From IMG/VR virus record IMGVR_UViG_3300008266_000192, positions 1-37,322 of that record: a DNA stretch of 37,322 bases; one strand, given 5' to 3'. Positions 115 through 15,778 of the stretch are shown piece by piece (position 1 is the stretch's first letter; each line of letters starts with the position of its first letter). The position numbers were made by a program, and so were the translations under genes. This DNA comes from a virus. The notes under the pieces are model-generated. The model did no database searches and was not told the origin of the DNA. It saw nothing but the letters and a program-made list of their open reading frames with translations.

Positions 115-202
115 AATTTATGTACCTATGCTTTCTGTGATTATTGGTGATTAGTGTGTTTTTCGGGCAAGAAGCCCTTCTTTTTCAAGCTACCAGAAAA
201 GG

Positions 203-379
203 TTAGATCTCTGGTGCGGTGAAAGGCTTGTTTGCCTTGTCAGAGTTGAGTCCATCAACGAATGCATCCTTGAGATCCTTGGTCTTGTTGACCGTTTTCT
301 TTGGTGCAGTCTTGACGACTCGGAAGGTGGAACCAGTCAACTTACCAAGTCCACGAACTGTTTTATCCATGATTGCCAT
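203..379 (-). CDS. Small basic phage protein, 58 aa, unknown function
   Basis: An ATG at 379-377 is preceded by AGGAGAAA at good spacing, which fixes the start. The 58-residue product begins MAIMDKTVRGLGKL and is rich in Lys and Thr, with the run TAPKKTVNKTKDLKDAF in the middle, so it is soluble and basic. It has no recognisable domain. It lies between the partial gene at the window edge and a pair of membrane peptides, all on the same strand. A roughly 180-base AT-rich gap upstream contains a 10-bp inverted repeat (499-508 with 536-545), which suggests separate transcriptional control. Confidence 0.7.
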   Translation of the reverse strand: MAIMDKTVRGLGKLTGSTFRVVKTAPKKTVNKTKDLKDAFVDGLNSDKANKPFTAPEI

Positions 380-498
380 ATTTTCTCCTATTGTGTTTAT
401 GGGTGATTATATTTCTATGTTTATTTTTTTATACTTCATCTCCAGAATCGAATATATAAAATATTTGTTCTATGAGATCGAAGAACCAATGAAGCATG

Positions 499-545
499 TT
501 TCACCCCCTTTGCCCTTCTTTTCTGGATGGACATTGGGGGTGAAA
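499..545. other. 10-bp perfect inverted repeat between small genes
   Basis: TTTCACCCCC at 499-508 pairs perfectly with GGGGGTGAAA at 536-545. The loop holds one copy of the CCCTTCTT element. It lies just downstream of the 40-residue membrane peptide gene (minus strand). No T-tract follows, so it is a hairpin of unknown use rather than a clear terminator. Confidence 0.5.
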
Positions 546-556
546 ACATTGTTGAA

Positions 557-679
557 TCACCAGTTAGTCGGGTGATTGTAACGAGCATTTGATCTCCTGA
601 GCTTTTGATCATACAGGTAGATGTATGCTGTTACCATAACCGCGTAGCAAGTGACGAATCCGAGTAGGAATGCTAACAT
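557..679 (-). CDS. Small single-span membrane protein, 40 aa
   Basis: The gene starts at ATG 679-677, overlapping the stop of the upstream peptide gene in a TAATG arrangement, which implies translational coupling. The product begins MLAFLLGFVTCYAVMVTAY, a single hydrophobic span of about 20 residues, followed by a basic polar tail (KLRRSNARYNH) that should face the cytoplasm. It is too short for a known domain. Tiny membrane proteins in such clusters are often superinfection-exclusion or lysis accessory proteins, but nothing here decides that. Confidence 0.65.
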   Translation of the reverse strand: MLAFLLGFVTCYAVMVTAYIYLYDQKLRRSNARYNHPTNW

Positions 680-771
680 TATTTACCTCGTTTCTTTTTG
701 CCGGCTAGCAACCACAAGAAGGCAAAAGCCACTGTGGTTACAACTGTACTGATAGTGACTTTTTTGTTCAT
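679..771 (-). CDS. Small membrane peptide, 30 aa
   Basis: The start ATG at 771-769 overlaps the stop TGA of the preceding 98-residue gene (ATGA), and its own stop overlaps the next start (TAATG). The gene therefore sits in a tightly coupled string. The product has a short N-terminal basic stretch (MNKK), a hydrophobic segment ending FAFLWLLAG, and a basic tail (KKKRGK). This is a typical topology for a single-span peptide with both ends positively charged. Function is unknown. Confidence 0.6.
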   Translation of the reverse strand: MNKKVTISTVVTTVAFAFLWLLAGKKKRGK

Positions 772-1064
772 ACAGGTGTGTTCTCCATGATCCATGCTTG
801 CATCATATGGCTGTGCATTTCAACAATTTTTTTGGCTTGTTCGAAACTTGCACATGGGTATGTGTAGTTGTGATGGTCGGATGAATCACCAGTAGGTGAC
901 TGGATACTGAACTCGATGTAGCACCTGCCACTTGACACGTGATTGTGTGCTACATAGGATGAGTACATACCTTTTGGAAGGCTGTATCCACTACGGTTGT
1001 ATGCGATGAAACCATATGCCTGAGCATCTGGGGTTTCGTAGGTTACTTGTTCTACTTGCATCAT
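768..1064 (-). CDS. Hypothetical phage protein, 98 aa
   Basis: The start codon at 1064-1062 overlaps the stop of the upstream 38-residue membrane peptide (ATGA), with AAAGGA in reach. The product begins MMQVEQVTYETPDAQ. It has a mixed beta-like N-terminal half, with aromatic residues and a GRCYIEFSIQ stretch, and an alpha-helical C-terminal tail (FEQAKKIVEMHSHMMQAW). No signal peptide or membrane span is present. It resembles small orphan phage proteins, and I do not recognise a family. It is co-transcribed with membrane peptides on both sides. Confidence 0.7.
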   Translation of the reverse strand: MMQVEQVTYETPDAQAYGFIAYNRSGYSLPKGMYSSYVAHNHVSSGRCYIEFSIQSPTGDSSDHHNYTYPCASFEQAKKIVEMHSHMMQAWIMENTPV

Positions 1065-1177
1065 TTGTTTTCCTTTGGCTTAGTGTCAATGAAAAGGGCG
1101 GTACCAATCACACCAATGGCGATTGTTATCATCCAAATCAGGTTGCTGATGATGTTTGCTGCGATTATTTTCTTCAT
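1061..1177 (-). CDS. Small single-span membrane protein, 38 aa
   Basis: I place the start at ATG 1177-1175 because GAAGGAGC lies at good spacing upstream; an in-frame ATG at 1249 lacks such a site and would overlap the upstream gene. The product is MKKIIAAN followed by a hydrophobic span of about 22 residues (ending GVIGTALFI) and a charged tail (DTKPKENK). It begins one base after the stop of the 53-residue coiled-coil gene and ends overlapping the 98-residue gene, so all three form one coupled operon. Confidence 0.65.
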   Translation of the reverse strand: MKKIIAANIISNLIWMITIAIGVIGTALFIDTKPKENK

Positions 1178-1178
1178 G

Positions 1179-1340
1179 TTATTTTGCTCCTTCTTCGAGT
1201 TGCTTGATACGGTCGTGCAACATGTGGATGATGTTGCCATGCTTTTCAACGATGGTCGTCAAGGTCTTGATGGTTTCCAAGATGCCCTTGTCAAATTCGA
1301 GGTGCTTGATCTCCCGCTGGACAATTCCTGCTTCTGACAT
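1179..1340 (-). CDS. Small coiled-coil protein, 53 aa
   Basis: ATG at 1340-1338 is preceded by AAAGGAGAAAC, a strong ribosome site. The 53-residue product has a heptad-like pattern of Ile, Leu and Val (ILETIKTLTTIVEKHG through MLHDRIKQLEEG), predicting a short coiled coil. Arg9 is encoded by CGG, an in-frame sense use of a codon that is otherwise absent from the right arm of this window. The gene heads an operon with the 38-, 98-, 30- and 40-residue genes. It follows a leader containing a promoter, a palindrome and a terminator-like hairpin. Confidence 0.65.
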   Translation of the reverse strand: MSEAGIVQREIKHLEFDKGILETIKTLTTIVEKHGNIIHMLHDRIKQLEEGAK

Positions 1341-1366
1341 GTTTCTCCTTTGTGGTTGTGTTTCTA

Positions 1367-1395
1367 AAATAAAAAAAGGGATAAACCCTTCTTTT
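1367..1395 (-). terminator. Terminator-like hairpin directly upstream of the 53-aa gene
   Basis: On the minus strand AAAAGAAGGG, a 5-base loop and CCCTTTTTTT form a hairpin (one G-U pair) ending in a T-rich tract. It lies between the candidate promoter at 1506-1534 and the gene starting at 1340. It could therefore be an attenuator in the leader as well as a terminator of upstream transcription. Confidence 0.5.
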
Positions 1396-1483
1396 ACAAG
1401 TGGTTTAGAAGTTTTGGTGCCCCGTTATCAACTTTGCTTCGGTGGGGCAAACCGCCAGTGTTCTTAGGTGTTGACTACCCTTA

Positions 1484-1534
1484 CCTAGGTATACCTAGGA
1501 TCTGAAGTATCACAAGATCACGTATTGATCCCAA
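1484..1534 (-). promoter_or_regulatory. Candidate promoter with 16-bp palindromic operator
   Basis: On the minus strand TTGGGA (1534-1529) and GATACT (1511-1506) are separated by exactly 17 bases. GATACT is preceded by TGT, giving an extended -10. The perfect palindrome CCTAGGTATACCTAGG at 1484-1499 lies at the expected transcription start, an ideal operator position. The downstream leader of about 160 bases also holds a TGCCCC/GGGGCA stem (1418-1449) and the terminator-like hairpin. The next gene starts at 1340. Confidence 0.5.
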
Positions 1535-1570
1535 CCTAATGATTGGGTACTTCTCTTGCGCACAACATCT

Positions 1571-1894
1571 TTATGACTTGCTTTTGTCAATGATTGCGTC
1601 AATGGCAATGAGCTCAGCCAAATGGTCTTTTGCTACAGTGGTGAATGCACCTTCGGTCATTTGGAACAGCCAATCTGCAGCTTTATCAAGTCTGTTGTAG
1701 CCCTTGAAGATCTGCACATAGGTGCTGTCATTGTCCGGAAGATCGTACTGCACTGTGACGCGCATAGCCATCTTCTTGTGAAGCTGACCATTTTGTTCGA
1801 CATCACCTTGTTCCACAGTGAAATGACCACCGATGAAATCCATGATGCAAACGTACTTGAAGGTATCCAGTAGGATACGGTTGGTGAATGACAT
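1571..1894 (-). CDS. Hypothetical phage protein, 107 aa
   Basis: The start ATG overlaps the stop of the upstream zinc-knuckle gene (TAATG at 1892-1896), so the two are translationally coupled. The product begins MSFTNRILLDTFKY. It has a central beta-rich region (MRVTVQYDL to YVQIFKGYN) and a helical C-terminal half (DKAADWLFQM to LIAIDAIIDKSKS). There is no membrane span or recognised motif. Length and composition fit the many small cytoplasmic proteins in phage early regions. A noncoding leader of about 230 bases lies downstream, before the next operon. Confidence 0.65.
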   Translation of the reverse strand: MSFTNRILLDTFKYVCIMDFIGGHFTVEQGDVEQNGQLHKKMAMRVTVQYDLPDNDSTYVQIFKGYNRLDKAADWLFQMTEGAFTTVAKDHLAELIAIDAIIDKSKS

Positions 1895-2151
1895 TACGAG
1901 ACTCCAATCTCATCTTCTTCGTCTTTACCGAAGAGTTTGTTCCAACACTCTGGGTGAGTGCCACTGATGATGATTTCTCGTTGCTCAGCTGTGAGATACG
2001 GAAATGCATCTTGAGCATAGAGACCTGACTGATAACTATTCAAGTCACTGACATTCAATTGGATGAAACTGGTTTCACCGCAATGAAAGCAACGCTTACA
2101 AATCGTTTCAGCCTGAGCACCTGCTCGAGTGAAATTGTATTGCTTGGACAT
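1894..2151 (-). CDS. Small zinc-knuckle phage protein, 85 aa
   Basis: AAGGAGAAAAC precedes the ATG at 2151-2149. The product has a CxxCxxC cluster at residues 18-24 (ICKRCFHCG) and a second site around H66-x2-C69-W in SGTHPECW, so it probably binds one zinc. The middle (QDAFPYLTAEQREIIISG) matches, from memory, a small-protein family common in actinobacterial and other phages with the pattern Q-x-FP-x-L-x4-RE-x3-SG. Its biochemical role is unknown. It is the first gene of a two-gene unit and lies just behind a strong hairpin terminator. Confidence 0.7.
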   Translation of the reverse strand: MSKQYNFTRAGAQAETICKRCFHCGETSFIQLNVSDLNSYQSGLYAQDAFPYLTAEQREIIISGTHPECWNKLFGKDEEDEIGVS

Positions 2152-2179
2152 GTTTTCTCCTTATGGTTGTATTTCTAAA

Positions 2180-2238
2180 ACAAAAAACAAGAAGGGCCAC
2201 CTACGGCGCAACCAAAGTGCCAATAGGTGACCCTTCTT
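2180..2238 (-). terminator. Strong hairpin plus T-tract, 15-bp stem
   Basis: On the minus strand AAGAAGGGTCACCTA (2238-2224) pairs with TAGGTGGCCCTTCTT (2203-2189), with one G-T wobble, followed by GTTTTTTG. This is a textbook Rho-independent terminator. It ends only about 30 bases before the start codon of the 85-residue gene and about 35 bases after the stop of the 54-residue gene, leaving little room for a new promoter. Confidence 0.7.
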
Positions 2239-2272
2239 TTCCAGGAGGGACGCACGAACTTACATCACCAAG

Positions 2273-2437
2273 CTATCTCCAAGAACCTTCCTGGATGATG
2301 CTGGTGATGACTTGTGGAGTGTCAATGTAGAAGTCACCAACTGGTGAGATCCAACTGACAAGACCGATGTTTTCTTTGGCAACCTGGATTGCCCGAAACG
2401 CCACATCAAGCGATTCGATTGCTTTTGCAACTGGCAT
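2273..2437 (-). CDS. Hypothetical phage protein, 54 aa
   Basis: AAAGGAGAAAGTA precedes the ATG at 2437-2435. The 54-residue product begins MPVAKAIESLDVAF, a helix, followed by a short beta-like segment (GLVSWISPVGDFYID) and another helix (TPQVITSIIQEGSW). There is no membrane span and no known family. Arg15 is encoded by CGG. It is an isolated single-gene unit with hairpin structures both upstream (2526-2590) and downstream (2180-2238). Confidence 0.6.
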   Translation of the reverse strand: MPVAKAIESLDVAFRAIQVAKENIGLVSWISPVGDFYIDTPQVITSIIQEGSWR

Positions 2438-2525
2438 TACTTTCTCCTTTGTTTGTGGTGGAAGAACCCTTCTTTTCCAGCTAAGATTTAGAAGCTATAA
2501 TAAAAAATAACTTTTAACTATAGTT

Positions 2526-2590
2526 CTAAAATAAAAAAGTCAGATAGTCCACATACTCTGGTATCGGCCGGATCAGCAGCATGTGGACTA
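2526..2590 (-). terminator. Terminator-like hairpin, 10-bp perfect stem
   Basis: TAGTCCACAT at 2545-2554 pairs perfectly with ATGTGGACTA at 2581-2590. On the minus strand the stem is followed by TCTGACTTTTTTATTTT and then a TTTTAGAA box. It lies upstream of the 54-residue gene, repeating the pattern hairpin, T-tract, TTTTAGAA, gene. Confidence 0.55.
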
Positions 2591-2715
2591 CCCTAGTCAA
2601 TGAATTCAGTGGTTACTGAGACACAGGCACATTGACTTGCCCTAACATTCAGTGGTCTTCGCTGGTAAAGCAGGAGTTTGTTGTCCTGCCGCAAAGGCTG
2701 TTTGTTACTCTAGAA
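2591..2715. other. Noncoding structured gap between 54-aa gene and SSB-like gene
   Basis: The noncoding stretch 2438-2780 holds the hairpins listed separately. This middle part also shows short inverted repeats: GCAGGA/TCCTGC around 2666-2687 and CATTGACT/AGTCAATG (loop about 30 bases). Only tiny ORFs without ribosome sites occur. I looked for a tRNA cloverleaf and found none. Confidence 0.4.
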
Positions 2716-2763
2716 GAAAAGGGGAAACCCCCCCAGCAATCCCAAACGGGACTACTGAGGGGG
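2716..2763 (-). terminator. Terminator downstream of the SSB-like gene
   Basis: On the minus strand CCCCCTCAGTAGTCCC (2763-2748) pairs imperfectly with GGGATTGCTGGGGGGG (2743-2728) across a 4-base loop. It is followed by TTTCCCCTTTTCTTC. It begins 18 bases after the stop codon of the SSB-like gene, as expected for its transcript end. Confidence 0.65.
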
Positions 2764-2780
2764 CAGGACTGACGCTCAGG

Positions 2781-3194
2781 TCAGAAGGGCAAATCCTCAC
2801 CCTCGACCTGAACCTCACGGGCCTTCTTTGCCAACAGGTTATTGGCAAACTTGCGGGCAGCCTCCGTGATGACGACCTCACCCTGCTCTGGGAGAGGTTC
2901 AGCGTCAGGAGCGTCCACGGTGAGGTTACCACCCCAGAACACCTGCTTGCGTGGGAACTTGAGTTCCTGCACGAAGCCCGCCTTATCGACATAGGTGGTT
3001 TGCACCTTGCCGAAAGACACGGTGTCAAAGGTGACCCGCATGCCTGGGACAATCCCACCGACCTGGGAGTTGAGCACCCAAGCCCAGTAACGGATGTCGT
3101 CCGTCTCGTTGAGGCTCCTGAGCCCCACTGAGGTTGACTTCGGGCCTGGGGTGTTCAAACCCACTACCGCGAAGGTATTGCTGAGAGTTGCCAT
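2781..3194 (-). CDS. Probable single-stranded DNA-binding protein, 137 aa
   Basis: I place the start at ATG 3194-3192, behind GAAAGGAG; a longer in-frame extension has no ribosome site and reads through the leader. Residues 48-90 look like a beta-barrel core (GMRVTFDTVSFGKV then QELKFPRKQVFWGG). The protein ends EVQVEGEDLPF, which matches the acidic C-terminal tip (D-D-D-I/L-P-F type) by which SSB proteins recruit replication partners. That tip and the size are the main evidence, and the OB fold itself is inferred. The gene is markedly more GC-rich than its neighbours and uses CGG (Arg53). It has its own terminator and a long leader with two CCCTTCTT copies. Confidence 0.45.
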   Translation of the reverse strand: MATLSNTFAVVGLNTPGPKSTSVGLRSLNETDDIRYWAWVLNSQVGGIVPGMRVTFDTVSFGKVQTTYVDKAGFVQELKFPRKQVFWGGNLTVDAPDAEPLPEQGEVVITEAARKFANNLLAKKAREVQVEGEDLPF

Positions 3195-3398
3195 GATGGC
3201 GAACTCCTTTCTGCCAGAGAACTGGCGTTGGTTGCGGAGTGGCGGAATACCACCCCTTCTTTTCCAGCCCAAGCCCGTTAGAGGACTTGAGCCAAGAAAC
3301 CCTTCTTTGAACGCACCAAACAGGACCCGTGCGCAAAGGTCACAAACATCGTTTAGAAGCCTAGAGTTGAAGCCAGCCTTCACCCGCAGGGTTTAGAA
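3195..3398 (-). other. Long leader of the SSB-like gene
   Basis: This roughly 200-base GC-rich gap carries two TTTAGAAGC boxes (3352-3360, 3392-3400) and two CCCTTCTT elements (3254-3261, 3300-3307), all in one orientation. I see no convincing sigma70 promoter and no credible ORF other than a poor N-terminal extension of the SSB-like gene. It is a good place to look for phage-polymerase promoters. Confidence 0.4.
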
Positions 3399-3442
3399 GC
3401 AGACAGTAGTACTTATTATTATAATAAATACTAGCTGCCTGC
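3399..3442. repeat. Long imperfect inverted repeat over the polymerase stop codon
   Basis: The arms 3399-3419 and 3421-3442 are nearly complementary (two mismatches and one extra base over about 21 pairs) and include the TAG stop of the 873-residue gene at 3431-3433. No T-tract follows on the minus strand, so it may protect or process the 3' end of the mRNA rather than terminate transcription by the usual mechanism. Confidence 0.55.
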
Positions 3443-6052
3443 AACTAAACGCGTGTACGCACGGATGAACCAGTCAACTGGCAACTGGTTGATGGATGGA
3501 TCAACAGCAAAGAGCCACTTATCCCAGTTTGCACGTGGGTTAGCCTTCTTGGCAATGAAGCTCTGACGGTACAGCCTGAGCACCTTGCGATCAGTGGCTT
3601 CCTCTCCATACATCTCATCGGACTTAGCCAGCATCTTGACCAGCTTGCTAGCCCAGAGCTTACTTGGGTTGGTTGCCCTCATGAGCTCCATAATGGTGTT
3701 GAACTCACCTGGGGTAGCCTTGAGCTCTTCTGAGCTGAACTCCATGGCTGCAATTGCTTCTGGCATAACCATTTCGTTATTAGCCCACTCAAGGAGCTCT
3801 GCAAAGGCAGTACGGACAATGGTCTCACGGGTGAGCATGAGTTCCATCATCATGGATTCTTGCTTTGAGGCAATGTGCTCCATAAAGCCATACTTTGCTG
3901 CCGTCTTTGGCTGGATCCTGGTATCAGCCCAGTAGTAGTCCATCTTACCGTTGTTAGCAACCAACCAACGCTTGATCCCCTTGTAATAATCCTCGTTGGA
4001 GTCAGAGATCAAGGACATGTCGACTGCATCTGCCAGACCCTGTTGGACAGCATCAATGATCTGCTCGTTAGACACCAGCTGAACTTTGATATAGCTATCC
4101 GTGACAGCATAGGTAAGCATCTTGGGCAATACCGTTGAACCAGTACCACCTGGGAGCTTCTCGATAGACAGACGGACACGTTGCTCGTCATCTGGACCGA
4201 ATTGGCTTCCAACCGTCAGGCTGGACACACCAGGCAGCTCTTTGTAACGGTACCTGATAGTGCAATTATTAATGAGGTCAGACAACTGTGGAACCTTTGC
4301 CCGCAGCTGATCCTCATTGACCATTGGCACTTGACCGTAGGTGTGAAACGCATTACCAACTTCCTTGTCGGAAACTGGGATCATACTCCATTCACCAGAG
4401 TCGTTTGGGTTACGCAGCAAGAATGCCTTGAGTGCTACGTTACCAGTGCTATCCACAACCCTGCGAATCATCACGTTGATGGTGTCGTCAAGGTCATAGC
4501 CACCATGGTTGGTGTAGTTCTCGATGAAGAACTCAGTTGGTACCACAAAGCAGTGGGTCTTGTGGTGGTAGAACCCTTGGCCCTTGTCCTTAGGCAGCTT
4601 GTAGCCGAATACCTCAAGAGCATCTCGAGTCATGATGTGAGCACGGTATGCGTATGGGACTGGGAACCAAGTGCCATTGTTGGTTGCCTTGTAAGTGAGG
4701 CCATATGGCACAACCCGGTTGTTCTTGTCAATCACACCGAACATGCGTCCAAAGCCGTTTGCCTTGAGGTACATGAGCAGCTGGCTAACGTCGATGCCCA
4801 ACCCTGCTTCTGCCAGACGCTTGCCCAACTGGTCGATGCTCTTGATCATGGATGGCTTGTCCTTGATGTCATCATCCAGGTGTTCGGTCATACCAGTGTT
4901 ATCAATTACCGTCTGGACCCAGTCGTTCTGGTCAATCTTGTTCGTCTTGATGTCGGCAACCATCTTGGTGACAGCTTCCTGCATAGACGTAAGCAGTAGG
5001 GCTGGGTCAACCAAGCCAGCTACATTCTTGTAGATGGACATGGTCAGGTCATCGGACTTGAGTGGCAGACGACCATAGCTTGGCTCGATAGTAGCCCAGT
5101 AGAACCCATTGGTCTTGAGTTCAGCCTTCACGTTTGGCGTAAAGGTCCTGATATCAAAGCCATGCATCTGCTCATCTGGTACGATGATTGCGTTACCCTT
5201 GATCAGTCCGTGCGGAGTAAGTGCACGCAGAGATACGATAACCATCTTACCTTCGTCAATCTGGCTGACCTTGTCTTGCATCCAGTCAATAGAGGCATTC
5301 GGGTTGTTCAAGAACATCTGCATAGCCATGCTACGGCTGATTGCACTGATACCGTCAACTGCCTTCTCATCCAACCCAATCTCGTCTGGGTTTATGATCT
5401 GGATGTTGAGCTCGTCTGAGTACATGAATGCACTGGTCTGACGCACAAACTCCTGAGCACGCTTGATGAACTTCTTGCTGTTGCCGATGATGAATCCAGC
5501 CTGTTCCAGAGCATCGAGCCATCCATTGTTGCCCTTGATCATCAAGTTGAACTGGTGGCTTGCGTTGGACCAGCGGATTGCTACCTTCTTGTCGGTGGCT
5601 GGGTTGTATGCACCAAGTGGGCCCTCCATACCAACCTTGTTGTCCATAACCCTACGAACTTCCAGACGGTATCCCTGTGGGAAGAACCTGTCCAGCAGCG
5701 CAAAGCTGTAGACTCCGTTGTTGAACTGCTCATCAACAGTATCCCTGCTCATGAGCGGTACGTTAGTGGCAACCCGGATCAAATCCGAATTACCAATCCT
5801 GACCATGCCGTGAAACATGGTGTTTACCTCCTCTGTGGTTGTTGTTTGTGGTTCCACTGAATTACCTCCTGTGGTTGTTGGTGTTTCTGGCTTTGGGTTG
5901 TTTTCCATGGGTGGCTCCTCCTTTGGTGGCGTTGTCCTGATTACACCCGACTTACCTTCAGCTTTGAGCATGTTTGCCAGCTCAATGCTGCTTTCTGCTT
6001 GAACTTCGAACCAATCATCGGTTCCGTTCAGCTTGAAGTAGTATGTCTTCAT
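3431..6052 (-). CDS. Candidate two-barrel single-subunit RNA polymerase (YonO/RDR-like), 873 aa
   Basis: The length is close to YonO, the SPbeta-phage DNA-dependent RNA polymerase (about 900 residues), and the order of landmarks follows eukaryotic RDR/QDE-1 enzymes. These are VDGISAIS at 232-239 (RDR motif DG-x-G-x-IS), GLIKG at 282-286 followed by FDIRTF at 299-304 (compare KG... and IR-x-S), FPVPYAYRAHI at 463-473, and GGYDLDDT at 517-524. The last aligns with the GGDLDGD catalytic loop of the double-psi barrel, but the third Asp position is Thr and the Gly is Asp. Residues 1-38 are a small extra domain and 40-78 a Pro/Thr/Glu linker. AGGAGG precedes the ATG at 6052, and internal starts at residues 49, 66 and 79 also have strong ribosome sites. 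CGG codes for Arg93 and Arg446. The family assignment rests on motif reading only. Confidence 0.5.
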   Translation of the reverse strand: MKTYYFKLNGTDDWFEVQAESSIELANMLKAEGKSGVIRTTPPKEEPPMENNPKPETPTTTGGNSVEPQTTTTEEVNTMFHGMVRIGNSDLIRVATNVPLMSRDTVDEQFNNGVYSFALLDRFFPQGYRLEVRRVMDNKVGMEGPLGAYNPATDKKVAIRWSNASHQFNLMIKGNNGWLDALEQAGFIIGNSKKFIKRAQEFVRQTSAFMYSDELNIQIINPDEIGLDEKAVDGISAISRSMAMQMFLNNPNASIDWMQDKVSQIDEGKMVIVSLRALTPHGLIKGNAIIVPDEQMHGFDIRTFTPNVKAELKTNGFYWATIEPSYGRLPLKSDDLTMSIYKNVAGLVDPALLLTSMQEAVTKMVADIKTNKIDQNDWVQTVIDNTGMTEHLDDDIKDKPSMIKSIDQLGKRLAEAGLGIDVSQLLMYLKANGFGRMFGVIDKNNRVVPYGLTYKATNNGTWFPVPYAYRAHIMTRDALEVFGYKLPKDKGQGFYHHKTHCFVVPTEFFIENYTNHGGYDLDDTINVMIRRVVDSTGNVALKAFLLRNPNDSGEWSMIPVSDKEVGNAFHTYGQVPMVNEDQLRAKVPQLSDLINNCTIRYRYKELPGVSSLTVGSQFGPDDEQRVRLSIEKLPGGTGSTVLPKMLTYAVTDSYIKVQLVSNEQIIDAVQQGLADAVDMSLISDSNEDYYKGIKRWLVANNGKMDYYWADTRIQPKTAAKYGFMEHIASKQESMMMELMLTRETIVRTAFAELLEWANNEMVMPEAIAAMEFSSEELKATPGEFNTIMELMRATNPSKLWASKLVKMLAKSDEMYGEEATDRKVLRLYRQSFIAKKANPRANWDKWLFAVDPSINQLPVDWFIRAYTRLVAGS

Positions 6053-6270: not shown

Positions 6271-6317
6271 AATTAGGCCCCTCCTAGAGCCTTGACTAAA
6301 GGTCTTTCCTCTAGTCA

Positions 6318-6354
6318 TAAAAAAGAAACCCCCAGGGACCGAAGTCCCCAGGGG
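6318..6354 (-). terminator. Rho-independent terminator with TTCG loop
   Basis: On the minus strand CCCCTGGGGAC, the tetraloop TTCG and GTCCCTGGGGG are followed by TTTCTTTTTT. It lies downstream of the 100-residue gene (stop at 6400) and separates it from the zinc-ribbon/polymerase unit. Confidence 0.85.
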
Positions 6355-6702: not shown

Positions 6703-6863
6703 GATGTCCTCCTGGAAATCATGTTGGTGATGATACTTATGCGGGATCATCATTGCCGCTTGCAGTCAAAGGCCTGACTGACTGGTCATGTGTTTTACAA
6801 CCTCATGACAAACGGTTGGTTCATGGACATTTAACGTCGATCCAATCAGACGGATTGAATTAG

Positions 6864-7133
6864 TTACTTACCTTGTGGGAAGTAAACCATCTGCCCATGC
6901 TGAACCATTGCTGATCCACCATTAAGCTTGATGACTGCATCTACCCTGTCTTGCTTGTCATAACCGCCTGTGCAGTTGGCCTCTTCGACCAATGTCCAGT
7001 AGGTATCACCAGAGTGTGCTACGACACTATCCGTAACACAGCTAACTGCTGGTGGGTTAATGAGTTGGTTGACCCGCACAGCAAACACTGCTGCTACGGC
7101 AACCACCATGATGGCAATAGCTGCCTTCTTCAT
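6864..7133 (-). CDS. Membrane-anchored LysM-like protein, 89 aa
   Basis: The N terminus MKKAAIAIMVVAVAAVFAV is a signal anchor. Residues 36-86 read as a LysM repeat (VVAHSGDTYWTLVEEA, then RVDAVIKLNG, then GQMVYFP), a peptidoglycan-binding module. Cys32 and Cys54 could form a disulfide outside the membrane. I chose the ATG at 7133 with AAAGGAG upstream. An alternative start at 7172 has an even stronger AAGGAGGGG and would add 13 residues. Arg20 is encoded by CGG. The product would sit in the membrane and touch the cell wall, so superinfection exclusion or host-envelope alteration is plausible but unproven. Confidence 0.65.
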   Translation of the reverse strand: MKKAAIAIMVVAVAAVFAVRVNQLINPPAVSCVTDSVVAHSGDTYWTLVEEANCTGGYDKQDRVDAVIKLNGGSAMVQHGQMVYFPQGK

Positions 7134-7254
7134 GGTTGCTCCTTTCTTGTTGTTGGTTTGTATTGCATGCATAGCTAAGCCCCTCCTTAGGGTAATTTAT
7201 TGTTGTTGGTAGAATGGGCAGTTTAACGACGTACCCAGGTCGCAGGGTAGTTAA

Positions 7255-7830
7255 TTAGCTAGCTATCCTGTACACACACTTGGTAATGTTGATACCATTG
7301 TGCTCTAGGATCCACTGACGTGAATAATCAGGAATGCGTGCACCTTGCATCATTTCCCTATATTGCCATGATCCTAGCTTTGTCATGGTAGTTACCTGTA
7401 TTTCACCACGATTTCCTGAAACATAATCTAACCAGATTACTGTTCCATTTTCCTTGGCGAATACGTAGTATGCACCGTTACCAAACAGCACACGATTAGC
7501 TACAGCAGCCTCTACCAATTGAGCAATGAAATAGTCCATTGAACTACCAGTATGTGTAGCTACATGGCTCTGTGTATCTGCCTGACGCAAGAAGTCAAGT
7601 AGACTAGATGCCACCCTGTAATCAGTATGCATGGTACCCTCATAGTGAGGCACCTCTTGTACTGTGTTGCTGATGGTATCAATTACTAGCTTCTTGCCAT
7701 ATTCATTGATGTACCATAGGGCACCATTACCGTAGTAATAACGTCCCTCTGATGCAGCGGAGATTACCCGCATGAATAGGTCATGTGCTGTATCTGACAG
7801 CACAGGTTTGTTGGTTGTGTAAGTAGCCAA
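7255..7830 (-). CDS. Hypothetical protein with internal duplication, 191 aa
   Basis: The start is TTG (7830-7828), chosen because AAGGAGGG lies at ideal spacing and no ATG is near. The product contains two copies of a module of about 30 residues: 31-60 (YYYGNGALWYINEYGKKLVI...) and 114-145 (VLFGNGAYYVFAKENGTVIW...). Both have a GNGA-Y/W core followed by a beta hairpin. The flanking segments are helical. I do not recognise the family. It is the most upstream gene of the leftward arm, next to the noncoding divergent region. Confidence 0.7.
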   Translation of the reverse strand: MATYTTNKPVLSDTAHDLFMRVISAASEGRYYYGNGALWYINEYGKKLVIDTISNTVQEVPHYEGTMHTDYRVASSLLDFLRQADTQSHVATHTGSSMDYFIAQLVEAAVANRVLFGNGAYYVFAKENGTVIWLDYVSGNRGEIQVTTMTKLGSWQYREMMQGARIPDYSRQWILEHNGINITKCVYRIAS

Positions 7831-7940
7831 GTATGGCCCTCCTTAGTACACACTATTAAGGCTTGTGTGTCTCCTAGCATTGGGATTTATAACCATGATG
7901 CCAACGGTTAGTCCTTGTTATAAAACAGAGGGACAACCAG

Positions 7941-7952
7941 GGGGTATACCCC
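7941..7952. promoter_or_regulatory. Palindrome GGGGTATACCCC, possible operator
   Basis: This perfect 12-bp palindrome shares the 8-base core GGTATACC with the 16-bp palindrome at 1484-1499. Both are intergenic and upstream of leftward genes, so a common repressor is conceivable. No second line of evidence is available. Confidence 0.4.
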
Positions 7953-8110
7953 AGGGGGCTACTTAAAGCTTTTTGACGGCAATAAGTATCCCATAGTACC
8001 CACTCACAAATTTCCTTATTTTTTATAACCTTTAAATTTTATATAACTTTATAGAACTCCGTTTGGTCTCAAAAATTTTTCCCCAAAAAAATCCCTATTA
8101 GGAGTTGCGT

Positions 8111-8152
8111 ATGGCTACATCACCTGCTAGGGTGATTCCCGCAAGACAATAA
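8111..8152 (+). CDS. Possible 13-codon leader peptide
   Basis: ATG at 8111 follows TTAGGAGTTGCGT and encodes MATSPARVIPARQ before TAA. It overlaps a small hairpin and ends 25 bases before the 59-residue gene. It could be a translated leader that affects expression of the next gene, or chance. Confidence 0.2.
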   Translation: MATSPARVIPARQ

Positions 8153-8177
8153 CCCTACAAATCAAGGAGAAACCACA

Positions 8178-8357
8178 ATGTCAAATACCAACTACTCATA
8201 TGTTATCTCTGAAGAGGTTCTCATGAATCTAGAGACCACAGAAGAAATCAGAGAGTTTATGGAAGCCTATGAAATAGGATCCTTTGACCTAGATGATAGA
8301 TATCCTGAAGATGACTATGACTATTATGATACAGACAACTACGGTTACGACTACTAA
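8178..8357 (+). CDS. Very acidic Asp/Tyr-rich protein, 59 aa
   Basis: AAGGAGAAACCACA precedes the ATG at 8178. The N-terminal half is helical (SEEVLMNLETTEEIREFMEAYEI), and the C-terminal 25 residues are almost only Asp, Glu and Tyr with a few Gly. The strong negative charge suggests a DNA-mimic or protein-binding decoy, as seen in several phage inhibitors of host enzymes, but there is no sequence-specific support. It is the first rightward gene after the divergent region. Confidence 0.65.
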   Translation: MSNTNYSYVISEEVLMNLETTEEIREFMEAYEIGSFDLDDRYPEDDYDYYDTDNYGYDY

Positions 8358-8429
8358 GATATTTTATTATTATTTATTTTAATACTTATCACAATCACGC
8401 CTACAAAACAAGAAAGTATGTAAAACAAT

Positions 8430-8972
8430 ATGACAATGCCTAAAAACTTTGTGTTAGGTTCAGATAAACTTTTTGATACAAAAGCACCATGGAAGCTAGA
8501 TGATAGTCTTCTAGGTCAACTACGTACAGATCACCATATAGCTACCTTTACACAACTAGATGATAACTTTGTCAAAGAAGGAGAAAGAATCCATCGCGGC
8601 ATTCGTTCTATCTTAAAGAATAATACTTTTGATCATAAAGTATTTATAGGATATGAACAAGAGTGTATGTTTGCGCCATCGCTATACTTACAATACGGTA
8701 TAGAGTTTGACACTGTGTTTATGGTGAACAATCCTCATCCACAACAAGTGTTTGAGCCACTCATGGCTTTCAGTATGGTATACAATATTTACACTAAGCC
8801 ACAGTTATCAAACAGAGTTATCCCATGGGCGGAATGTAACCAATACATTAAAACATTTCAGCCGGCGCACATGTCAACAAGAGTATCTTTAGAGATCTCA
8901 GGACTATTGATGTATGACAGATACCATGTAGATTACTTCAGTGATAACAAATCAATAATGACACAAATCTAA
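8430..8972 (+). CDS. Hypothetical phage protein, 180 aa
   Basis: The product begins MTMPKNFVLGSDKLFD; a second Met at position 3 could be the true start, and the ribosome site is weak. It looks like a soluble alpha/beta protein, with a hydrophobic strand VFIGYEQECMFAP, the segment FDTVFMVNNPHP and a C-terminal helix-strand region. No catalytic motif is evident. Its stop overlaps the end of the leftward 97-residue gene by a few bases (convergent). Function is unknown. Confidence 0.65.
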   Translation: MTMPKNFVLGSDKLFDTKAPWKLDDSLLGQLRTDHHIATFTQLDDNFVKEGERIHRGIRSILKNNTFDHKVFIGYEQECMFAPSLYLQYGIEFDTVFMVNNPHPQQVFEPLMAFSMVYNIYTKPQLSNRVIPWAECNQYIKTFQPAHMSTRVSLEISGLLMYDRYHVDYFSDNKSIMTQI

Positions 8973-9262
8973 AACCCAAAATCATCCTTAGTAAAAGTAA
9001 GGATATTTGGGGAACTAGGATCAAGTGAGCGGACCACCTCTTCAACATCTTGAGAGGTGAGTTCGCTTATATCCTGAACCATGGCCCACTGATCAGTGTT
9101 AAAAACAGCCATAGTATAATTCTCATCATCTTCAGTGTGAATACAGATAATGATATTCTCACTACTCATAGGATCAGTCTCATCAAACTCAAACAGGTTA
9201 GACATCCCAGACCTGTTCACCTTATCAATAAACTTATTAATCAGTCTGAAGAAAAAATCCAT
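8969..9262 (-). CDS. Hypothetical acidic protein, 97 aa
   Basis: TAGGAGAG precedes the ATG at 9262-9260. The N-terminal 15 residues (MDFFFRLINKFIDKV) form an amphipathic helix. The rest is acidic with beta-strand character (ENIIICIHTEDDENYTMAVF) and a helical segment (ELTSQDVEEVVRSLD). It is convergent with the 180-residue gene, and a bidirectional terminator lies immediately upstream. I recognise no family. Confidence 0.65.
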   Translation of the reverse strand: MDFFFRLINKFIDKVNRSGMSNLFEFDETDPMSSENIIICIHTEDDENYTMAVFNTDQWAMVQDISELTSQDVEEVVRSLDPSSPNILTFTKDDFGF

Positions 9263-9285
9263 TAAAGTTCTCTCCTACTTTAAAT

Positions 9286-9328
9286 TAAAAAAAATAATTC
9301 GTCCGAAAATTTTGCGGGCGGCTTTTTT
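9286..9328. terminator. Bidirectional terminator
   Basis: CGTCCG (9300-9305) and CGGGCG (9315-9320) form a stem around AAAATTTTG. TTTTTT follows on the plus strand and a run of eight T follows on the minus strand. It probably ends the leftward transcript of the 96-residue gene. Confidence 0.6.
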
Positions 9329-9368
9329 CCAATAGTAATTCTAAAAGATCACTTACGTTTGTTGAGAA

Positions 9369-9659
9369 CTAAAAATCTTCCTGATTCTGTCTTCTATCTT
9401 CTAAATACTCTAGAAGTTCCTCAACTGTGTCAAGCAGGGAGATGAGTCTGCGCTCTAACTTAATTGTATCAAAAGCTGGCTTATTCTTTTTTTCTTGAAG
9501 CTTTTCTCTTAAAGAAGGGGATGGATTGAGTTCCATAAACTCTTCAAAGGCATCCCAATCAAAACTAGGCTTATTAATCTTTGGTTCTGATTGATATTTT
9601 GAATTAGAAAAATCTTTAAATAAAAAATAAAGATTGTCTTTGTTGTCTTCGTTATTCAT
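9369..9659 (-). CDS. Hypothetical helical protein, 96 aa
   Basis: The ATG at 9659 overlaps the 3' end of the zinc-ribbon gene upstream, so translation is probably coupled; its own ribosome site (AGAAGAAG) is weak. The product is hydrophilic with two Lys/Pro-rich stretches (KINKPSF, KKNKPAF). It ends in a probable coiled coil (LERRLISLLDTVEELLEYLEDRR). There is no known family. The C-terminal coil suggests oligomerisation or a protein-binding role. Confidence 0.65.
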   Translation of the reverse strand: MNNEDNKDNLYFLFKDFSNSKYQSEPKINKPSFDWDAFEEFMELNPSPSLREKLQEKKNKPAFDTIKLERRLISLLDTVEELLEYLEDRRQNQEDF

Positions 9660-9810
9660 AAACTTCTTCTACCCACTTTTCTCCACACTCACGACATTCA
9701 ATACCAAAACGTAGGCATTGGTCTGTTTTCTTTGTTAAATCATTTATAATCACATTCATTGGCACTGGGCACTCTGAACATGGAATTAGATTTAATTTAC
9801 TGTTTAACAC
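9652..9810 (-). CDS. Small zinc-ribbon protein, 52 aa, GTG start
   Basis: A GTG at 9810-9808 lies behind AAGGAAAAAAA. The frame reads two cysteine pairs: CSEC at residues 11-14 and CREC at 39-42 (the latter followed by GEKW), with an extra Cys32. This spacing fits a zinc ribbon. The last 8 bases overlap the next gene. The conserved-looking cysteines, not length, are the reason to call it. It may bind nucleic acid or a protein partner; no more can be said. Confidence 0.6.
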   Translation of the reverse strand: MLNSKLNLIPCSECPVPMNVIINDLTKKTDQCLRFGIECRECGEKWVEEVYE

Positions 9811-9845
9811 TTTTTTTCCTTAACATAATCTATCTATATTATACA

Positions 9846-10538
9846 CTATACAACTGATCGTCTGCTTGCTCTTCTTGCTGCTTCTGCTGCTTTTGCAGCC
9901 GCTTCTGCCGCCTCGTTGGCTTTTATCTCATTTGTTAGCCCTAAAAGCCTTTCGTCAAATTGTTCTTGAGTTAATTCTGCTAAAGAAATATCATCTCTTA
10001 CAAAAGTTGATACTACATGCCCCTCTGCATCTGTAACAAATTTCGTTGTGCCAGTATTTACTTTAATCCCTCTTGCAGCTATTTTTTGTGCCACGTCTCT
10101 TTGCATTACAAGCTGCTCTTGAGGAGTAACGAATTGCAAGGACTCAGCGCCCCAACCACCAATTAATACTTCTCCTGGTTTTCCTGTAACTGGATCTCTT
10201 ATCAGATCAACTGATTCTATTGCAGAAGAATCAAATGGCATATCTGGGAATTGAGCTTCAGTATATCCACCTGGAGCACCTGGGATAAGGACTTTATTAT
10301 GTTCACTAACTAAAGGTACGGTTCCTAAATCTTTAGGAATTGGGTGTACGCCTGATGTTCCTAAAAGCCCGCGACTATTAAGGCCATAACTATCGCCTAC
10401 AGTATAGGTCATTCTAGGATCATGCTTAAAATTTATAATAGCGCCTCCCATAAGTTCATCTATCTCATGCTCAAAAGTAGCTTGTCTTGCACCGAGTTTC
10501 TGATCCATATAAAGAACCATGCTCCGACATATTGACAC
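9846..10538 (-). CDS. ADP-ribosyltransferase-like protein, C-terminal part in the +1 frame
   Basis: This frame continues the gene that starts at 11001. Its own apparent start (10538) has no ribosome site, and the sensible junction is Gly16 (GGT at 10493-10491), reached by skipping the C of a CGG codon. Residues 33-54 (GAIINFKHDPRMTYTVGDSYGL) and 91-96 (GYTEAQ) resemble, from memory, a phage and bacterial ADP-ribosyltransferase-like family in which a Y-x-E-A-Q glutamate is catalytic. An Ala-rich helix (about 207-225) and the basic end RRASRRSVV close the protein. The joined product would be about 384 residues. Toxin or host-modifying activity is an inference. Confidence 0.5.
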   Translation of the reverse strand: MSICRSMVLYMDQKLGARQATFEHEIDELMGGAIINFKHDPRMTYTVGDSYGLNSRGLLGTSGVHPIPKDLGTVPLVSEHNKVLIPGAPGGYTEAQFPDMPFDSSAIESVDLIRDPVTGKPGEVLIGGWGAESLQFVTPQEQLVMQRDVAQKIAARGIKVNTGTTKFVTDAEGHVVSTFVRDDISLAELTQEQFDERLLGLTNEIKANEAAEAAAKAAEAARRASRRSVV

Positions 10539-11001
10539 GAAAAGACCTATATTGTGAAGCTGTAGTTATATCGTCGGAAGCTCTAATAAATCCATAATTA
10601 CTGTTTCCTTGAAGATAAGTACTTTCTATTCTATCTCTAACAGCGTTATATCCGTTAAAACTGCTCTCGTCTGCTACCCCAGCTTCTTCTAAGAATTTTT
10701 TATTACCCAAATAGCCACTAGTGGTTGCTTTTCTGGAGCTAATTTCTCCAGATTCAACAATACTTAATAGGTCAGACCCTCTTGTAGCCATTGAGATAGA
10801 TCTTTTTGGCTTAGGTAGCACAGCTTCTATGACACCAGAACTTTGAGCAGCTCTTGGAGCAATTGATTCAGATGCTCTTACAGCGGGGCGCGCAGAAGCT
10901 ATTCTTCTTAGAGTTGCTGGGTTTATGGCAGATCTTTTGGTTTTACCCAAAGCAGAACCAGCATCAACTGCTGCCTGCATAAATCTGCCAGAAAATTTCA
11001 T
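10471..11001 (-). CDS. ADP-ribosyltransferase-like protein, N-terminal part (0 frame)
   Basis: It starts at ATG 11001-10999 with no clear ribosome site. Residues 1-70 are a basic Ala/Arg/Ser-rich leader like those of the structural proteins at 14-21 kb, hinting that it may be packaged in the virion. From about residue 73 (RGSDLLSIVESGEI) it looks like the start of an ADP-ribosyltransferase-type fold, with a YGFIRASDD segment near 136. The 0 frame runs only seven codons past Thr169: codon 170 is CGG, then TGC AAG ... TGA. The family-like sequence resumes in the +1 frame at that CGG. Confidence 0.5.
   Translation of the reverse strand: MKFSGRFMQAAVDAGSALGKTKRSAINPATLRRIASARPAVRASESIAPRAAQSSGVIEAVLPKPKRSISMATRGSDLLSIVESGEISSRKATTSGYLGNKKFLEEAGVADESSFNGYNAVRDRIESTYLQGNSNYGFIRASDDITTASQYRSFRVNMSEHGSLYGSETRCKTSYF
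10492..10494 (-). other. Candidate +1 frameshift site ACT-CGG-T
   Basis: CGG (minus strand 10494-10492) is codon 170 of the upstream frame. Skipping the C gives GGT GCA AGA, in frame with the downstream part. The two frames overlap for about 70 bases, and this is the only CGG codon in the upstream reading frame. Confidence 0.55.
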
Positions 11002-11032
11002 ATAGCTATAGTAACCCTATAGTCATAATGTT

Positions 11033-12013
11033 CTAGTGAGAGATTGATTTGATCTTTTCTTTAATTGAGTTAAAGACTTCTTCGTTTTCTCTCAGCTGAT
11101 TGATTGCGTTTTCTCTACCTTGTGAAAAGAGTTCGCCTTCATAATAAATCCAGGCACCTTTTTGTGTGAGAATGCCAGCTTCAAGCGCAACATCCAAAAC
11201 ACAACCATGTTCATCAATACCCTTGCCATAAAGAATAGAAAACTCTGTAACCTTCATAGGTGGAGCCATCTTATTTTTTATAATCTTTACCTTAGACACG
11301 ATACCTACGGAATTGCCAGCTTTGTCCTTGATATCTTCTCTCTTTCTAATATCAATACGGACAGATGCAGCATACTTAAGTGCCATACCACCTGGAGTAG
11401 TTTCAGGATTGCCGAACATTACACCAATCTTATTTCTAAGCTGGTTAATAAATACTAAAAGTGTCTTATGCTGATTTGCTTGACCAACAAGCTTACGCAT
11501 AGCTTTAGCCATCATTCTTGCCTGCAAGCCCATTTGTGCAGACTCCATATCTCCTTCTAATTCAGCTTTAGGAATTAGAGATGCAACAGAGTCAATAACA
11601 ATAACTCCAAGCTCACCAGTAGCAACAAGCTTATCTACTATCTCAAGTGCTTGTTCGCCGTAATCTGGCTGTGTAAAAACAAGATCATTAACACGAACAC
11701 CAACAGCATCCATATAAACTGGATCAAGGGCGTGTTCAGCATCAACATATGCACATGTGATACCCATCTTTTGGGCCTGTGCAACAATTGATAGTGCAAG
11801 TGTAGATTTGCCAGATGATTCTGGTCCATAAATCTCTACAACTCTACCTCTTGGTAAACCGCCAATTCCAAGAATTCTATCTAGCGATAAAGCACCTGTT
11901 GGAACAGATGGCCATGGTTCAAAATCTTCTGAACCTAATTTCATTACAGAGCCTGCACCAAACTGTCTTTCAATTTGAGCAATGGCTAATTCTAATTGCT
12001 TTGAGTCACTCAT
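11033..12013 (-). CDS. recA: RecA recombinase, 326 aa
   Basis: RecA binds single-stranded DNA, uses ATP to form filaments and drives homologous pairing and strand exchange. Here it probably supports phage replication and repair. Walker A is GPESSGKST (63-71), the catalytic Glu is E93 in DAEHALD, Walker B is VIVIDS (137-142), loop L1 is around EGDMESAQMG (153-162), and loop L2 follows INQLRNKIGVMFGNPETTPGG (189-209). It is a little shorter than cellular RecA (about 350) because the acidic C-terminal tail is reduced. The start overlaps the stop of the 59-residue gene upstream (ATGA). Identification is certain. Confidence 0.97.
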   Translation of the reverse strand: MSDSKQLELAIAQIERQFGAGSVMKLGSEDFEPWPSVPTGALSLDRILGIGGLPRGRVVEIYGPESSGKSTLALSIVAQAQKMGITCAYVDAEHALDPVYMDAVGVRVNDLVFTQPDYGEQALEIVDKLVATGELGVIVIDSVASLIPKAELEGDMESAQMGLQARMMAKAMRKLVGQANQHKTLLVFINQLRNKIGVMFGNPETTPGGMALKYAASVRIDIRKREDIKDKAGNSVGIVSKVKIIKNKMAPPMKVTEFSILYGKGIDEHGCVLDVALEAGILTQKGAWIYYEGELFSQGRENAINQLRENEEVFNSIKEKIKSISH

Positions 12014-12443: not shown

Positions 12444-12592
12444 GGGTATTTAGAAGCCTTAGGGAAGTATTATACTCAGTATCAAACACACTGAAGATTA
12501 TATTATAATAATTGTCCCCAGATACTAGACGGTTATCAACTAACTTGGATTTAAGCAGTACTATATCCAATAATCGATAGAATCGAGGACAT

Positions 12593-12871
12593 ATGAAAAT
12601 TTATCAAATATATGTTCCTGAGTTGGCAACTTATGCAAAGTTCAAAGTGTTTGAACCAGAACAAATTGAAGACTTCATTGTTTCTTACAAGAAGGAACAT
12701 AGAGATCCAGATATTATTTCTTTTAGAAAAAAAGTTATTGATACTTTTGTTTTTAATCTAAAATCAGACATTGTAGATTCATTAAGAATGATGAGTCGCG
12801 CAGCAGCAGAATCATGCACGGATGCTCTGTTTAAACGGATGCATTATGCTAAACCCAGGCTTAGATATTGA
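12593..12871 (+). CDS. AAA+ ATPase, N-terminal part (0 frame)
   Basis: GAGGACAT precedes the ATG at 12593. The 0 frame encodes an N-terminal domain of about 80 residues (MKIYQIYVPELATYAKFKVF ... MMSRAAAESCTDALFK). Codon 82 is CGG, after which ten more codons lead to TGA. Skipping the C of CGG enters the long AAA+ frame (GGA TGC ATT). The N-terminal domain has no clear family. The full product would be 487 residues: 81 from this frame and 406 from the next. Without the shift a 92-residue protein is made. Confidence 0.65.
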   Translation: MKIYQIYVPELATYAKFKVFEPEQIEDFIVSYKKEHRDPDIISFRKKVIDTFVFNLKSDIVDSLRMMSRAAAESCTDALFKRMHYAKPRLRY

Positions 12872-15061: not shown

Positions 15062-15778
15062 ATGTCAGAAATTGAAAAAAGAGACAAAATGTCTTTTATG
15101 AAAGAATTTGAATCAATTAGACCAGATTTATTTTTTCCAGAACATTGGACAAATGATCAGATTGACCAAGCAGTAGAAATAATCAAACCACAAAAAACAA
15201 GAAGCACAATGTTTTCTTCTATTCCAATGAACTGTGAAGCTGAACGTTGCCTGTTTGCATCAACATGCCCACTTCTTAAAGAGAGCCTTGCTCCAAGAGG
15301 AAAACCATGCCCAATAGAAATGTCAATAGTTTCGCAGTTTACTGCGGAATACCTAGAGCAATTAGAAGTAAATCCAAATAACCTAGTTGAAGTTTCGATG
15401 GTTAGAGATCTTGTTGACCAAGAAGTTCAATACTTAAGAAAAACAAAACTACTAGCAAAAGAACATTTTGTTCAAGAAAATATTATAGGTGTAGATTCTG
15501 ATGGAAATCCAATTATGAAAAAAGAACTTCACTTAGCGGTTGAACTTGAAGATAAGCTGCATAAAAGAAGAAAAGATTTAAGAAATCAACTTCTTGCAAC
15601 AAGAGAAGCAAAAGCTAAAGTTGGACAAGTTCAACTTGATACCGCACAAGCAATATCAGACATCATTGGAAGAGTCCAATCAATTGAGTCACAGAGAGAA
15701 AAGCTTATTAAGCAAAAGCTTGGTACAACAGAAATAGATGACTACATTATAGATTCAGAAGTTATTGACGAAAAATAA
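15062..15778 (+). CDS. Cysteine-motif helical protein, possible small terminase or packaging factor, 238 aa
   Basis: Residues 58-85 carry C58, C63, C69 and C83 in a pattern (NCEAERCLFASTCPLL ... GKPCPIE) I have seen in phage proteins encoded near terminases; it could bind zinc or an iron-sulfur cluster. The rest is strongly helical and charged, with a long probable coiled coil from about 165 to 225 (EDKLHKRRKDLRNQLLATRE...). An oligomeric DNA-binding role such as the small terminase subunit is plausible, but the large terminase lies 6 kb downstream and no helix-turn-helix is visible. The weak ribosome site AGGTG suggests coupling to the previous gene. Confidence 0.5.
   Translation: MSEIEKRDKMSFMKEFESIRPDLFFPEHWTNDQIDQAVEIIKPQKTRSTMFSSIPMNCEAERCLFASTCPLLKESLAPRGKPCPIEMSIVSQFTAEYLEQLEVNPNNLVEVSMVRDLVDQEVQYLRKTKLLAKEHFVQENIIGVDSDGNPIMKKELHLAVELEDKLHKRRKDLRNQLLATREAKAKVGQVQLDTAQAISDIIGRVQSIESQREKLIKQKLGTTEIDDYIIDSEVIDEK

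Follow-up and report, generated by a model that had tools for sequence, protein, structure and literature searches.

A short directional repeat in the early leaders of an uncultured phage group and its possible role as a transcription start signal

What is the function of a short sequence that is repeated before successive early genes of a phage, always in the same orientation? This question is raised by a 37,322-base virus contig (G000; IMG/VR record IMGVR_UViG_3300008266_000192), the whole of which we call the window. In a preliminary description of the window, seven intergenic copies of a short element in one orientation were noted between positions 175 and 3307. They were likened to the start-associated sequences (SAS) of mycobacteriophages, and promoters for the phage polymerase, RNA-processing sites and regulator-binding sites were considered as functions. 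Where phages infect abundant uncultured bacteria, almost all that is known of them comes from contigs. The element, named R1 here, allows one expression class in an uncultured phage group, probably of Actinobacteria, to be tagged by an exact sequence, and it makes the role of repeated actinophage leader motifs (SAS, stoperators and similar elements) testable. We tentatively propose that R1 is a phage-specific transcription start signal.

Distribution of R1 in the window

The R1 core, AAAGAAGGG, occurs exactly seven times on the minus strand of the window, which encodes the early genes read leftward. All seven copies are in one orientation within 175-3308, and their 5′ ends on the coding strand are at 3308, 3262, 2475, 2239, 1394, 521 and 183. 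On the plus strand, the element reads CCCTTCTTT... and occupies 175-188, 513-526, 1386-1399, 2231-2244, 2467-2480, 3254-3267 and 3300-3308, the last being a shorter match. The core is the most frequent 9-mer on the minus strand of the segment 1-3440. An order-3 Markov model predicts only 0.12 copies there, and 2000 simulations gave at most 2. The minus strand of the other 34 kb of the window contains none, and two chance copies are present on the opposite strand, at 9511 and 36326, both inside open reading frames (ORFs). When a 14-mer with up to three mismatches was used, 16 matches were found in the window as compared with 3.9 expected. Thus, the exact-core count confirms the number and the common orientation given in the preliminary description.

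The placement of all copies between genes was also borne out. All seven lie clear of the assigned genes, although intergenic sequence makes up only 33% of the segment (p = 4e-4 by position). This count takes the conserved 22-amino-acid (aa) micro-ORF at 429-497 as the gene and not the overlapping 58-aa ORF at 436-612, which would contain the 513 copy. A near-match with three mismatches at 2821 is within a gene and scores under the real copies.

Conservation of R1 in related contigs

Relatives with R1 were located by viral scans for genes related to those of the 873-aa and 107-aa proteins of the window. Four R1-bearing relatives (G001, G003, L046 and L047) were obtained, with protein identities to the window of ~50-74%. 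G003 is a 56-kb contig, and L046 and L047 are 96% identical to each other. It should be mentioned that all contigs are genome fragments and that the absence of a gene from them is weak evidence.

G001 has four R1 copies, each at a leader that matches one of the window. G003 has five exact copies and one degenerate copy, and L046 and L047 have five each. Whole-contig counts gave 0-3 further copies per contig, every one on the opposite strand. In this motif search, no random or intragenic spread of R1 was seen in the window or in the four relatives. Because copies in matching leaders are not independent, the effective sample is about four lineages and not 21 trials. In these four lineages, R1 heads almost every gene cluster of one early region, once and occasionally twice, in the direction of transcription.

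The individual copies of the window, all on the minus strand, are as follows in the order of transcription. The leader of a gene for an SSB-like protein (SSB, single-stranded DNA-binding protein) has two. The first consists of the core only (3300-3308); it is matched in G001 (10687) and has a degenerate counterpart, GGGAAAAGAAAGG, in G003. The second, GCTGGAAAAGAAGGG (3254-3268), is matched in G001 (10733), G003 (7082) and L046 (11764). The same sequence, GCTGGAAAAGAAGGG, is found at 2467-2481 in the leader of a 54-aa gene (matches at G001 11453 and G003 7768). The leader of the operon for the 85-aa and 107-aa proteins carries CCTGGAAAAGAAGGG (2231-2245; G001 11688), and that of the 1340-682 operon carries CTTGTAAAAGAAGGG (1386-1400; G003 8558). 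At 513-526, CCAGAAAAGAAGGG lies 15 nucleotides (nt) before the ATG of the 22-aa micro-ORF, and it is matched at G003 9923 and L046 14236. This micro-ORF (429-497, minus strand; MLHWFFDLIEQIFYIFDSGDEV) is conserved in position and pattern, with homologous frames in G003 and L046. Finally, CTTGAAAAAGAAGGG (175-189) lies 63 nt before the ATG (111) of a gene that runs off the left end of the window; its match is at L046 14520, and it is lost in G003. In G003, an R1 copy at 15626 precedes the homologue of the 85-aa gene at a relocated position, and the 334-aa gene has lost its copy.

The pooled consensus of R1 is ACYTGGAAAAGAAGGG(T), ~15 bp. Information drops sharply at both ends, including the end at GGG, and the pooled alignment contains no second box at a fixed spacing. 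In a position matrix built from 21 copies, real sites score at least 16.8 and are separated from the rest; these copies were gathered via the exact 9-mer, a selection with which the separation has to be read. One extra match (16.6), in L046 (13197) and L047, consists of a gene end and an ordinary Shine-Dalgarno site. Distant lineages align at 75-88% in the core but at only 24-48% over the 50 bp that precede it. Therefore, no conserved promoter is seen upstream of R1. The gap from R1 to the start codon is 15-105 nt, and the Shine-Dalgarno sites are separate from R1.

Hairpins, terminators and promoter-like sites near R1

The preliminary description stated that several copies form hairpin arms. 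This is correct for single copies (1386, 2231, 3254 and 175). For example, the 1386 copy also supplies the 5′ arm of one terminator-like hairpin (1371-1395), and the 2231 copy does so for a strong one (2189-2238), behind which lies a T-run. It is not a general property: the GGG of R1 is paired in 14/21 predicted folds as compared with 14.9 expected from shuffles. Because GGG pairing is no commoner than in shuffles, hairpins do not define R1, and we rejected the hairpin as a component of the element. The leader of the SSB-like gene is an exception. There, a hairpin (3236-3256, minus strand) starts exactly at the GGG of the 3254 copy, and its structure is kept in four lineages despite sequence change. 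The stems are GGGGTGG/CCACTCC in the window, GGGATGG/CCATTCC in G001 and GGGACTCAC/GTGGGTTCC in L046; a further stem, GGGTTGGC/GCCATCCC, has one mismatch. A stem-loop with a T run, as in an intrinsic terminator, is not present at each R1 copy, and several copies are stemless.

Terminator-like sites are ~2-4 times commoner than in shuffles. Sigma-70 -35 and -10 hexamers at a spacing of 16-18 bp were not found on the coding strand of the R1 leaders of the window, and consensus sigma-70 sites occur at the level expected by chance from shuffles. Since terminators are abundant and sigma-70 sites are at chance, the units need unusual promoters of their own or read-through.

Two promoter arrangements that include R1 were considered and discarded. 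When the CTTGAAA part of R1 is taken as a -35 box, a single fitting -10 is found (G003 8554-8582) and a shared box nowhere else. In the second, a bipartite promoter TTCTAAA-N(~10)-R1, TCTAAA is present within 40 nt upstream of just 6/20 copies (five of them at 15-19 nt), so this arrangement is not general. A short repeat, TTCTAAAC, lies 15-19 nt before five R1 copies. It also occurs twice just past the 873-aa gene in every lineage (window 3352-3407; L007 10591-10637; L022 6898-6962; L046 11397-11445).

A transcription start signal or another leader element

We favour, somewhat short of calling it probable, the idea that R1 is a directional, phage-specific signal for the start of transcription, made of a single box, with one or two copies per unit of the early block. 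A polymerase, or a factor that redirects a polymerase, would recognise ~12 bp (CTTGGAAAAGAA); the A-rich stretch of R1 would then open, and RNA would begin at or beside GGG. The sharp end of the information at GGG and the lack of a fixed second box are, by analogy, as for an initiator-type promoter. Each unit is led, in four lineages, by copies oriented with transcription, and this includes the relocated homologue of the 85-aa gene in G003. The lack of a conserved upstream promoter, the chance level of sigma-70 sites and the abundance of terminators also speak for a promoter. The 513 copy is informative in its geometry: its GGG lies directly before the Shine-Dalgarno sequence of the micro-ORF, only 15 nt from the start codon. 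Therefore, R1 is unlikely to be a far-upstream activator box for the micro-ORF and, on the promoter reading, the first nucleotide of the RNA must lie within R1 or just downstream of it. It is this geometry, together with the balance of terminators and sigma-70 sites, that leads us to prefer a single-box initiator-type promoter over a linear RNA element. The repeat, its orientation, its restriction to unit leaders, its conservation and the copy before a relocated gene are observed; the action at initiation, the position of +1 and the kind of reader are inferred.

Several observations weigh against a start signal. T7-type polymerase (PF00940; T7 control, 1e-109) and sigma region 4 (PF04545) were not found in the contigs searched, all of which are fragments, and no homology to polymerases could be detected in the 873-aa protein, whose gene lies upstream of the R1 block. 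The box is made of purines only, without the TA steps usual in promoters. Terminator-like hairpins directly follow the 1386 and 2231 copies, weak sigma-70-like sites are present near R1 in relatives (G001 10649-10676 and G003 8554-8582), and the leader repeats of neighbouring early units are RNA structures. Moreover, the copy before the 334-aa gene is dispensable, because it was lost in G003. Of the three functions in the preliminary description, a promoter specific to the phage has the best support, but a polymerase for it did not turn up in the contigs searched. A promoter role for R1 would imply that the part of these genomes not covered by the contigs encodes a transcription factor of an unrecognised kind.

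It is also possible, with a lower probability, that R1 acts as RNA: a linear, unstructured motif of the leader, bound by a protein of the phage or the host, that acts on translation, mRNA stability or terminator read-through like nut or put sites. R1 is always sense-oriented and in leaders, and as a purine-rich sequence it would be likely to stay single-stranded. Two copies are 5′ arms of terminators in a region rich in terminator-like hairpins, and the conserved hairpin in the leader of the SSB-like gene begins at GGG. This explanation stays strong because neighbouring early units carry RNA repeats, namely R2, a covarying pseudoknot, and R3, a terminator with a hairpin (see below). However, R1 itself is without conserved structure. 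We see no conserved promoter in the 57 nt upstream, which an RNA element needs unless transcription comes from far upstream. To our knowledge, seven copies in 3 kb exceed what known nut and put systems use.

Less likely is an orientation-dependent DNA operator, at which a bound repressor halts initiation or elongation as at the stoperators of cluster A mycobacteriophages such as L5. Stoperators are 13-15 bp asymmetric intergenic sites oriented with transcription (PMC9283540), and R1 is likewise asymmetric, ~15 bp and intergenic, with an orientation that follows transcription. In contrast, stoperators number more than 20, are spread genome-wide and are bound by a known immunity repressor (PMC9283540), whereas R1 is limited to one block of 3-8 kb with 4-7 copies per partial contig, of which the unseen genome could hold more. 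The sequences are unrelated, and a partial search of these partial genomes found neither a phage integrase nor an immunity repressor among the families searched. We consider it very improbable that R1 is a polypurine 5′ stabiliser of mRNA that pairs with the 16S rRNA tail (STAB-SD type). R1 is indeed purine-rich, Shine-Dalgarno-like and upstream of the true ribosome site. However, its predicted pairing with the tail, whose sequence was taken from general knowledge, is -7.2 kcal/mol, a strength that is equalled or surpassed by 89% of shuffles of the same 12 bases. Most true Shine-Dalgarno sites next to R1 also pair more strongly than R1 does, and the exact order AAAGAAGGG is kept, not AAAGGAGG. 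The purine order is not tuned to 16S rRNA, and pairing was rejected as the function of R1. There is similarly little chance that R1 works on the opposite strand as intrinsic terminators (a stem followed by CCCTTCTTTT) that stop antisense transcription. On the plus strand, several copies do form a stem with a T-rich tail (1386, 175 and 3254), but several, for example those at 513, at L046 12557 and 14236 and at G003 9923 and 15626, lack a GGG stem, and the conserved CCAAG/CCAG past the T run serves no role in a terminator.

Comparison of R1 with known repeats

The distance between SAS and the start codon is 3-7 bp in cluster K mycobacteriophages (PMC3203893). The analogy drawn in the preliminary description holds for the layout: both are short asymmetric repeats, nearly all in one orientation, located in the leaders of non-structural genes, tied to gene starts and conserved alongside homologous genes. 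The function is unproven for SAS, too. The analogy fails for position, because R1 is 15-105 nt from the start codon. As the description had also noted, the sequences differ: SAS is GGGATAGGAGCCC and contains the Shine-Dalgarno core, whereas R1 is ACYTGGAAAAGAAGGG and stands apart from it. Repeated intergenic motifs, suggested to be sites for a phage sigma factor, have been reported in PB1-like phages such as JG024 (PMC3008698). Their function is also unproven, and the likeness to R1 is one of description; the host group is different, and a sigma factor was not found in the R1 contigs searched. A polypurine stabiliser has been reported for mycobacterial katG (PMC2358910). Like this element and STAB-SD, R1 is a purine-rich leader element, but it is not optimised for 16S pairing.

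T7 promoters are conserved over ~23 bp and are used by a single-subunit polymerase. R1 resembles them as a repeated, directional motif that leads units and has an A-rich stretch followed by GGG. It differs in that its information covers ~15 bp instead of ~23 bp across the start, and in that no such polymerase was found in the fragments searched. R1 represents a new family within a known kind of leader repeat, and it belongs neither to SAS nor to stoperators nor to any other family of such repeats described so far.

Proteins encoded beside R1

The 873-aa protein (3431-6052, minus strand) contains a DLDD motif, which gave the idea of a two-barrel polymerase of the YonO/QDE-1 kind. This idea was rejected: there was no Pfam match, no match to a solved structure and no alignment with YonO. 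Its AlphaFold model was unusable (predicted local distance difference test, pLDDT, 40). In L046, a 1395-aa ORF (7183-11370, plus strand) has the homologue as its C-terminal part and also contains a NADAR domain and, by a weak match, a SLOG-like domain. Domains of these two types are associated with signalling by NAD/ADP-ribose in phage conflict.

The 137-aa protein (2781-3194, minus strand) has an acidic -DLPF tip, as in SSB. Its low-confidence model (pLDDT 55) matches mostly OB-fold binders of single-stranded DNA at E 0.01 or worse, with nothing below 1e-3 in Foldseek. From the tip and the model, this protein may be regarded as SSB-like. A transposase-like gene was seen in G003.

Genome context and host

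The first 8 kb of the window has ~43-50% GC (guanine plus cytosine) and is read leftward. Beyond 8 kb, GC is mostly 33-45%, and genes for RecA-like (assigned by sequence reading) and Clp-like proteins, terminase, portal and capsid are found. The step in GC is unlikely to be an assembly chimera, because early genes and RecA-side genes are found together in relatives too. A DNA search in phages gave no closer cultured relative. In the lake actinophage DSL-LC01, one small protein is shared and the R1 core is absent. When leader DNA patterns were used for scans, the outcome was either empty or limited to an already known relative, and a search of genome contigs gave no host. G003 encodes WhiB, and the host of the group is therefore probably an actinobacterium. 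To judge from database matches, the phages probably come from lake water.

Leader RNAs of neighbouring early units

R2 is a leader RNA repeat of ~85 nt with an H-type pseudoknot, present in up to three copies per contig. The pseudoknot has an invariant CAACC/GGTTG stem, a covarying second stem (TGACCC/GGGTCA) and an A-rich loop. Pairing is kept in 98% of cells, with 14 cells changed on both sides, a level reached by 0/500 shuffles. The window has one R2 (6768-6866, minus strand; pseudoknot 6783-6818). In relatives, R2 is found at L007 6961-7059, at L008 6489-6587, 6973-7071 and 7394-7492, at L022 3628-3726 and, on the minus strand, at L018 382-480 and 1-95 and L015 1119-1217 and 635-733. L015 is nearly identical to the window and has an extra gene between its two R2 copies (721-1153), where the window has a single R2. 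This arrangement suggests that R2 repeats may act as recombination joints for gain and loss of genes.

R3 is a cassette between successive early genes, composed of a strong terminator, a T-tract and TATGRCTAGARNATAGACC, often with a small hairpin GACTAGAGG..CCTCTAGTC. It lies at 6294-6354 (minus strand) in the window and occurs up to nine times in one relative (L007 4329, 4740, 5448, 5943, 6275, 6441, 7367, 7994 and 10508). One might extend the start-signal proposal: the initiator-type promoter R1 would be read by a phage transcription factor or polymerase outside all recognised families, and R1, R2 and R3 would mark successive early expression classes without host sigma-70 promoters. We consider this extension quite unlikely.

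When R1, R2 and a conserved RNA near 1416-1570 were compared with Rfam, none reached a family threshold, and only weak, sub-threshold, unrelated families were returned. R2 may represent a new family of RNA. The other conserved RNA is a noncoding, apparently structured stretch, GTAGTCAACAC...CGGT..ACCG..AAAGTTGAT, found at ~1416-1570 (minus strand) in the window, at L022 8325-8480 and at L046 ~12560-12840. In the window, it lies downstream of the 107-aa gene; in L046, an R1 copy lies upstream of it.

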